From Minisyncoccota bacterium (GTDB taxonomy: Bacteria; Patescibacteriota; Patescibacteriia; Patescibacteriales; UBA12465): a stretch of 33,061 bases of DNA. A model generated the notes under the pieces. It made no database searches and was not told the origin of the DNA. It worked only from the letters and a program-made list of their open reading frames with translations. Of the stretch, positions 5,507 through 7,058 are shown piece after piece; position 1 is the stretch's first letter, and every line of letters begins with the position of its first letter. Location: NCBI GenBank assembly GCA_021734405.1, contig JAIPJA010000007.1, positions 1 to 33,061 on the forward strand. Reading direction: 5' to 3'. The translations under genes and the position numbers were made by a program.

Positions 5507-6007
5507 TTAGTTTACTTGTTTGACTGTATAAGCTTGCTCCTTGTCTTTAGTGTTTAAAGTTATCTTGTCTCCAACCTTTTTTCCAATAAGTCTGGCACCT
5601 AGAGGTGAGAGATGGGAAATTATACCTTCGGTGGGATTGCTTTCACTAGAACCTAAGATAGTATAGGTTGTTTCTTGGTCATTTTTTTCTAAAACTACCT
5701 GACTGCCTATTTGTATTTTTCCCTCACTGTTTTTGTTTTCTATAATTATAGCGTGTTTTAGTTGATTTTCTACAAACAATATCTTATTGTTTAAACCTCT
5801 TAGCTGAGATTTAGCTAATTGGTAGCCAGCATTTTCAGAAAAATCACCATCAGAAGCTAATCTTTTTACTTCACTAGCTAGAATTGGTTGTTTCTTTTGC
5901 AACTCTTTTAGTTCTTGTGTTAACTTTTGATATTTAAGTTGACTAAGATAAGGGTCTAGTTTAGATCTTATTTTTCTTTGTTCGCTTTTTCTTTTAGGTA
6001 CTTGCAT
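5507..6007 (-). CDS. greA: Transcription elongation factor GreA/GreB family
   Basis: N-terminal coiled coil with DGDFSENAGYQLAKSQLRGLNNKI; C-terminal FKBP-like part (SPLGARLIGKKVGD). Confidence 0.9.
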   Translation of the reverse strand: MQVPKRKSEQRKIRSKLDPYLSQLKYQKLTQELKELQKKQPILASEVKRLASDGDFSENAGYQLAKSQLRGLNNKILFVENQLKHAIIIENKNSEGKIQIGSQVVLEKNDQETTYTILGSSESNPTEGIISHLSPLGARLIGKKVGDKITLNTKDKEQAYTVKQVN

Positions 6008-6078: not shown

Positions 6079-6106
6079 TTGACTAATATTAGATTTCTTG
6101 TATAAT
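6079..6106 (+). promoter_or_regulatory. Sigma70-like promoter driving the ncRNA candidate
   Basis: TTGACT (6079-6084), 16-bp spacer, TATAAT (6101-6106); no ORF follows before the terminator. Confidence 0.8.
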
Positions 6107-6112
6107 ATAGTT

Positions 6113-6360
6113 AAATAAGAAAGTGGTTTAGGAAAGCTTATTTTTTAATTAGTCTTGTAGGCATGTGTGAACAGGGTTGTGCCAGAGATTTTTAAAAAGT
6201 AGGTGAGAGGGATAAAAGTCCCAGACTGAAAAAGGCTAAGGTCCAAAAATTGAAGGTAGGTGGATAATTCTATCTTTAACCGAAGCCGCAGGCGTTCCCT
6301 GGATATTATCAGACGCGGTACTAAGCCAAGGGGTCAATTAGTTTTGACCTCTCTTTTTTT
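6113..6360 (+). ncRNA. Structured non-coding RNA candidate, about 245 nt, family not recognised
   Basis: Own promoter, no credible ORF, locally richer in G/C than neighbouring intergenic DNA. Closing helix 6124-6131 (TGGTTTAG) with 6321-6328 (CTAAGCCA); further stems TTAGTCT/AGACTGA and GGGA/TCCC; ends in an intrinsic terminator. Confidence 0.7.
6328..6360 (+). terminator. Intrinsic terminator of the ncRNA candidate
   Basis: AGGGGTCAA ttagt TTGACCTCT hairpin followed by CTTTTTTT. Confidence 0.85.
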
Positions 6361-6395: not shown

Positions 6396-6437
6396 TGAGT
6401 AATTAATAATAGATGTTTAACAAAAAAATAATAAAAT

Positions 6438-6896
6438 ATGAAAACTTTTTTGACAGTGTTAGCGATGATTGTCCTATTTTTGATTATGCTTATTTTAGGG
6501 CTATTCGTTTTTGAGGCTGAACAGCAAGTTTGGCAATATCTTGTGAGCTTGTGGCGCTCTCAAAGAGAAAAGCTCCCAGCTTTTTTAATGGGTGGGGTCT
6601 ATTTACTCTTATATTTAATTCCTTTTTTTCAGAATATAAGAATTAAAAAAGAATTAAAAAGAGAATCAGAAAAAGATTTTTTTTATAAAGCTGCTTTGAA
6701 AATAAATTTTATTTTCTTCTTAGTTATCTTTGCTGGTTACAATCTTTTTTCCTTTGGGTCTTTTAACCTATTAAAGGAAAATCAACCTGTAGGAATGGTT
6801 TTTATTGCTTTGGCAATAATCACCTTTTTTGTTTATATATTTTCAGCAAATAAAGTAGTGTTTTACTTGAAGCATAAACAGGCTCTTTCAAGATAA
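6438..6896 (+). CDS. Hypothetical membrane protein, about 4 TM
   Basis: 152-aa ORF with alternating hydrophobic segments; followed by a terminator. Confidence 0.65.
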   Translation: MKTFLTVLAMIVLFLIMLILGLFVFEAEQQVWQYLVSLWRSQREKLPAFLMGGVYLLLYLIPFFQNIRIKKELKRESEKDFFYKAALKINFIFFLVIFAGYNLFSFGSFNLLKENQPVGMVFIALAIITFFVYIFSANKVVFYLKHKQALSR

Positions 6897-6917
6897 GTAG
6901 AATAAAAATTTTTAATT

Positions 6918-6947
6918 ACCAGGATTTAAATTCCTGGTTTTTTTATT
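6918..6947 (+). terminator. Intrinsic terminator
   Basis: ACCAGGA tttaaat TCCTGGT followed by a T-run. Confidence 0.85.
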
Positions 6948-7019
6948 TTCACAGCTTTTTTAAGCTAGCTTTAATTTTTCTAAATAAGCTATGTGTTAGC
7001 TTAGAGAAGTGTCTTAAAG

Positions 7020-7058
7020 CGCTCCTAGTCTCTTCTTTTTTTAGAAGAGCTAGGAGCG
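7020..7058 (+). promoter_or_regulatory. Strong hairpin abutting the start codon (putative translational control element)
   Basis: CGCTCCTAG-t-CTCTTCT tttttt AGAAGAG-CTAGGAGCG: 16 bp with one bulge, ending 1 nt before ATG 7059. The 3' arm carries AGGAG. No T-run follows. Confidence 0.7.

Follow-up and report, generated by a model that had tools for sequence, protein, structure and literature searches.

A candidate stand-alone structured RNA gene between greA and a membrane-protein gene in a Minisyncoccota genome

In an ultra-small CPR bacterium, the intergenic DNA between greA and a gene for a small membrane protein may harbor a stand-alone, lineage-restricted structured RNA gene, a reading to which we assign a probability of roughly 0.5 from sequence features and computed folds. 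The locus lies at positions 6079-6360 of the window, i.e., of the whole analysed stretch of 33,061 nt, which is contig 4 of a 1.01-Mb genome in 51 contigs. The first-pass annotation had proposed a structured non-coding RNA of this kind. The promoter, the terminator, the missing ORF, a strand-specific fold and a helix closing the segment (P1) speak for the proposal, while the inner helices and the argument drawn from a second promoter did not survive, and the locus stands as a candidate only. Further support comes from a G over C skew and from a terminator that folds independently of P1, whereas the lack of homologs, an ordinary fold stability and the weak promoter of the downstream gene count against it.

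Promoter, terminator and base composition

The segment is bordered on one side by the divergent greA (5507-6007, minus strand), whose product has the GreA/GreB N- and C-terminal domains, and on the other by a plus-strand gene for a membrane protein of 152 aa with no Pfam family (6438-6896). A promoter TTGACT-N16-TATAAT at 6079-6106 on the plus strand carries 11 of the 12 consensus bases, is the top-scoring promoter match within the surrounding 3.5 kb, and is expected to start transcription near 6113. Sites with a score of at least 11/12 were found 81 times in the intergenic DNA of this genome, compared with a mean of 6.4 (2 to 12) in ten dinucleotide shuffles of the same DNA, thus roughly nine in ten such promoters should be real. 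The intrinsic terminator (6329-6359, plus strand) consists of a 9-bp stem (6329-6337/6344-6352), a 6-nt loop and CTTTTTTT, its pair probability being 0.87-1.0, and the hairpin at 6329-6352 carries a CT7 tail. Both elements had been picked out by eye, as a near-consensus TTGACT-16-TATAAT box of what proves to be an enriched class and as a 9-bp terminator with a T7 run, and both were confirmed.

The positions of the promoter and the terminator delimit a predicted transcript of about 247 nt (6113-6359, plus strand), which RNA polymerase would begin near 6113 and end at 6352-6359. A simple start-codon scan found no ORF of more than 10 codons wholly within it, and the largest frame across the region among ORFs of at least 20 aa, a 48-aa GTG frame from 6260 that is the sole longer ORF of the plus strand there, exits through the terminator, in agreement with the initial description, which saw no credible ORF over about 245 nt. 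The stretch 6079-6359 therefore combines its own promoter and terminator with the absence of an ORF, as a stand-alone sRNA gene would. In these features, in its size of about 245 nt and in its Rho-independent end it resembles the bacterial intergenic sRNAs, from which it differs in being structured beyond the terminator and in being a candidate without a family. A crude motif scan revealed no Hfq-like or CsrA-like short protein.

The segment 6113-6359 contains more G (0.26) than C (0.14), whereas each of the two makes up 0.144 of the intergenic DNA. This corresponds to a G over C skew of +0.30 where the intergenic DNA of the genome has none. The RNase P RNA of this genome has a skew of +0.16 and its tmRNA has none, thus the skew does not mark RNA genes in general in this genome.

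Predicted fold of the segment

The plus strand folds more stably than dinucleotide shuffles, with z-scores of -3.3 for 6118-6360, -3.5 for the core 6122-6330 and -2.9 for 6113-6328, while the minus strand of the locus reaches only -0.4, so that the stability is strand-specific, as would be expected of a structured RNA. A z-score of -3.3 or below was, however, reached by 18.6% of the intergenic windows of this genome in a folding survey whose z-scores, computed from 10 shuffles per window, are rough, and fold stability alone is thus unremarkable here.

The helix P1 on the plus strand pairs TGGTTTAG (6124-6131) with CTAAGCCA (6321-6328) over 8 bp including one G-T pair, at a predicted pair probability of 0.79-0.98, and matches the 8-bp pairing already recognized between these positions. 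Its 3' strand directly adjoins the terminator without overlapping it. Shuffled sequences formed a comparable end helix with 8 or more pairs, 3 or more of them G-C, in 1.2% of cases, and one with 8 or more pairs regardless of type in 7%. Three hairpins inside P1, all on the plus strand, are predicted in both the minimum free energy (MFE) and the centroid structure: a long A-T-rich hairpin at 6136-6204 (GCTTATTTTTTAA...TTTTTAAAAAGTAGGT) with the tip GGCATG/TGTGCC, a small hairpin GGGAT-AAAA-GTCCC at 6209-6222, and a hairpin at 6234-6285 (GGCT..GGT..TTGAAGGTAG/CTATCTTTAACC..AGCC). They are followed by a GC-rich 3' segment at 6286-6320 (CAGGCG..CCTGG..CAGACGCGG) that is partly paired in the MFE structure and weaker in the centroid. 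The inner helix TTAGTCT/AGACTGA of the first-pass annotation has a pair probability of 0, and a structure forced to contain it is about 10 kcal/mol less stable (-64.2 versus -74.2 kcal/mol for the MFE structure); the inner helices drawn there are not favored by the folding model.

We hypothesize that P1 would join the ends of the RNA and could stack on the terminator hairpin to give a compact, stable molecule, and that its purine-rich single-stranded joints (GGAAA, GTGAGA, AGACTGAAAAA, AAAAATT) might contact a protein or other RNAs. Such a small RNA could work in trans, either as a regulator or by binding protein, this trans function of the predicted molecule being a guess. A more ambitious version appears doubtful, in which a single CPR genus would have a structured RNA class of its own, serving as an RNP or a regulator and built on a conserved, multibranched core that P1 closes.

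Homologs and the leader question

When the 98 genomes of the order were searched with the RNA by BLASTn, as had been suggested together with the original proposal, the locus itself was the only match and nothing was found in the 97 relatives. As a positive control, BLASTn recovered the RNase P RNA of this genome from 7/7 relatives tested, at roughly 1e-5 or better. A covariance model of the segment detected only the locus itself beyond chance in 60 relatives and in sets of 39 family, 111 order and 381 class genomes (overlapping sets, the latter three including the own genome, with about 480 order and class genomes), and as this model is built on one sequence and an unproven fold, a diverged homolog could be missed. 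The covariance model also revealed no further copy elsewhere in the genome, and two exact core patterns had no match in viral contigs.

Several matches were considered and rejected. The weak covariance match in genome G062 (L042, E 0.06) spans the end of an opposite-strand ORF and a terminator and is at chance level over 60 genomes, as is the match in G115 (E 0.018) over 381 genomes. The match in phage 2B8 lies inside a coding gene. A 37-nt match of 89% identity in a Rhizobium plasmid (E 0.02) was dismissed as a coincidence. The stretch belongs to a 300-bp repeat present at 155 places in 40 plasmids, of which this copy alone is similar to the window, and the RNA model gives no match to it. The repeat, seen at L120 2900-3200, is intergenic, occurs up to five times per Rhizobium plasmid, and has no annotated feature in the plasmid table.

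The greA gene is present in 93/98 genomes, and the region upstream of it is not conserved in the relatives inspected. Three greA-upstream regions have short words in common with the locus, namely GCCGCAGGCG (L004), TGGATATTATCA (L016) and an A/T-rich 22-mer (L030), which were rejected as homologs because they do not extend into alignable RNA. A GreA search of wider genome contigs gave no near relative, the nearest named ones being MAGs of Magasanikbacteria (48%) and Uhrbacteria (42%), with one further MAG at 46%. The protein encoded at 6438 has no relatives in the 97 other genomes of the order.

The strongest competitor of the stand-alone gene, although we consider it clearly less probable, is a regulated 5' leader of the 6438 gene, in which transcription from 6079 would stop at the 6329 terminator unless a ligand, a protein or a ribosome event allowed read-through. 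A promoter, a structured RNA, a terminator, 80 nt and a same-strand ORF follow one another in the classic layout of attenuation, and both the RNA and the 6438 gene are missing from relatives. The first-pass annotation had argued against a leader from a second promoter after the terminator. The best match there, TTAATA-18-AATAAT at 6403-6432, has only 9 of 12 consensus bases, a score class no commoner than in shuffles (17 found versus 14.5 expected), thus that argument fails. The 6438 gene is left with no convincing promoter, which makes the leader a serious reading.

The locus shares with riboswitch and attenuator leaders the promoter, the folded domain closed by a basal helix, the terminator and the downstream gene, but no known core and, in single-sequence folding, no alternative antiterminator fold were found. 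When P1 was blocked or the RNA was cut before the 3' strand of the terminator, single-sequence folding gave no competing strong structure, and Rfam contributed no riboswitch or leader family even with permissive filters. The side-by-side arrangement of P1 and the terminator also speaks against a leader, and blocking P1 leaves the terminator intact, which suits an end that forms constitutively better than one that is switched. A pairing of CCCTGG (6297-6302) with CCAAGGG (6326-6332) can be drawn by hand but is absent from the MFE structure. Beyond the 6438 gene, the intergenic stretch 6897-7058 of the window folds into very strong hairpins on either strand (z -5.6 and -9.1) and holds the terminator of that gene.

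Other cassettes and known RNA families

A genome-wide scan for a strong promoter followed by a terminator with no CDS between them recovered tRNA genes, one tRNA with an intron, several units with small ORFs, and no fewer than four additional cassettes that match nothing in Rfam. These are located at C14:6756-7017 (L058, plus strand), C28:5780-5946 (L072, plus strand), C29:142-469 (L073, minus strand) and C26:13682-13888 (L070, plus strand). The last one, of 207 nt, folds into a single long hairpin interrupted by an internal bubble and is a candidate for a diverged 6S RNA on the basis of this predicted shape. With at least four other cassettes outside Rfam, the 6079-6360 locus is not unique and its surprise is lowered.

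The existence of these cassettes also lends weight to another explanation, namely that the locus is indeed a transcript unit but one that has no function or is decaying. A strong promoter would fire into intergenic DNA until a terminator happens to stop it, or the unit would be the relic of a lost element. The complete absence of conservation and the 18.6% of intergenic windows that fold as well are consistent with it. Against this, the fold is strand-specific, the G over C skew is marked, and P1 closes the whole segment, and we regard such a unit as rather unlikely.

Rfam 15 detected no family above the gathering cut-off anywhere in the window, and a permissive scan of the locus gave as its best match a eukaryotic snoRNA model at E 2.9, i.e., chance. 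The Rfam scan proposed at the outset thus yielded no significant match and bears out the by-eye impression that RNase P, SRP, tmRNA and riboswitch cores are absent. A resemblance to a group I intron and to a T-box was dropped by eye, as the element order is wrong and Rfam gives no support.

The locus is very unlikely to be a diverged form of one of the housekeeping RNAs (SRP RNA, 6S, RNase P or tmRNA), even though Rfam finds neither SRP RNA nor 6S here or in the relatives, with matches to the small and large SRP RNA models in 0/13 genomes and to RF00013 in 0/21. RNase P RNA and tmRNA are located elsewhere in the genome: its single RF00010 match is at C39:1294-1654, and ARAGORN, which reported no tmRNA in the window, places it on C5 at 859-1244. 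The locus shares the size class and the stand-alone gene with 6S RNA, but its fold is multibranched, whereas 6S forms a single long hairpin with a bubble at its center, RF00013 does not match, and the C26:13682-13888 cassette fits 6S better. SRP RNA is unlikely as well, the locus having no apical S-domain motif and no RF00169 or RF01854 match. We found no SRP-type GTPase in this genome, and PF00448 (Ffh/FtsY) gave only weak partial matches in the 98 genomes of the order with 14/14 controls positive, which suggests that the signal recognition particle was lost order-wide. As the order seems to be without Ffh/FtsY, SRP RNA is not expected here. A limited literature search found no paper stating an order-wide loss of SRP.

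Among known orphan RNAs with a structure, the stand-alone candidate resembles raiA, ROOL and GOLLD in being multibranched and in having no assigned function, and differs from them in matching no Rfam model and in having no homologs found. It is also much shorter than ROOL and GOLLD. Little literature was found on the small RNAs of CPR bacteria, and a clean promoter-to-terminator RNA gene shows how far the CPR RNA repertoire may fall outside Rfam. The several cassettes without an Rfam match are in keeping with the idea that RNAs missing from the catalogues occur in this lineage. As one unconserved candidate among several in the genome, the locus is of value mostly as a lead.

Two further observations were made elsewhere in the genome. 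A group I intron (RF00028, 109.7 bits) lies inside an apparent tRNA gene at C16 17055-17281 on the plus strand (L060). On the minus strand of C17 near 5529 and of C20 near 9556, perfect-consensus promoters are followed by similar leaders (AGATA-GATAAAGAAG-ATC...CGGGAAGT), which possibly represent a shared leader element.
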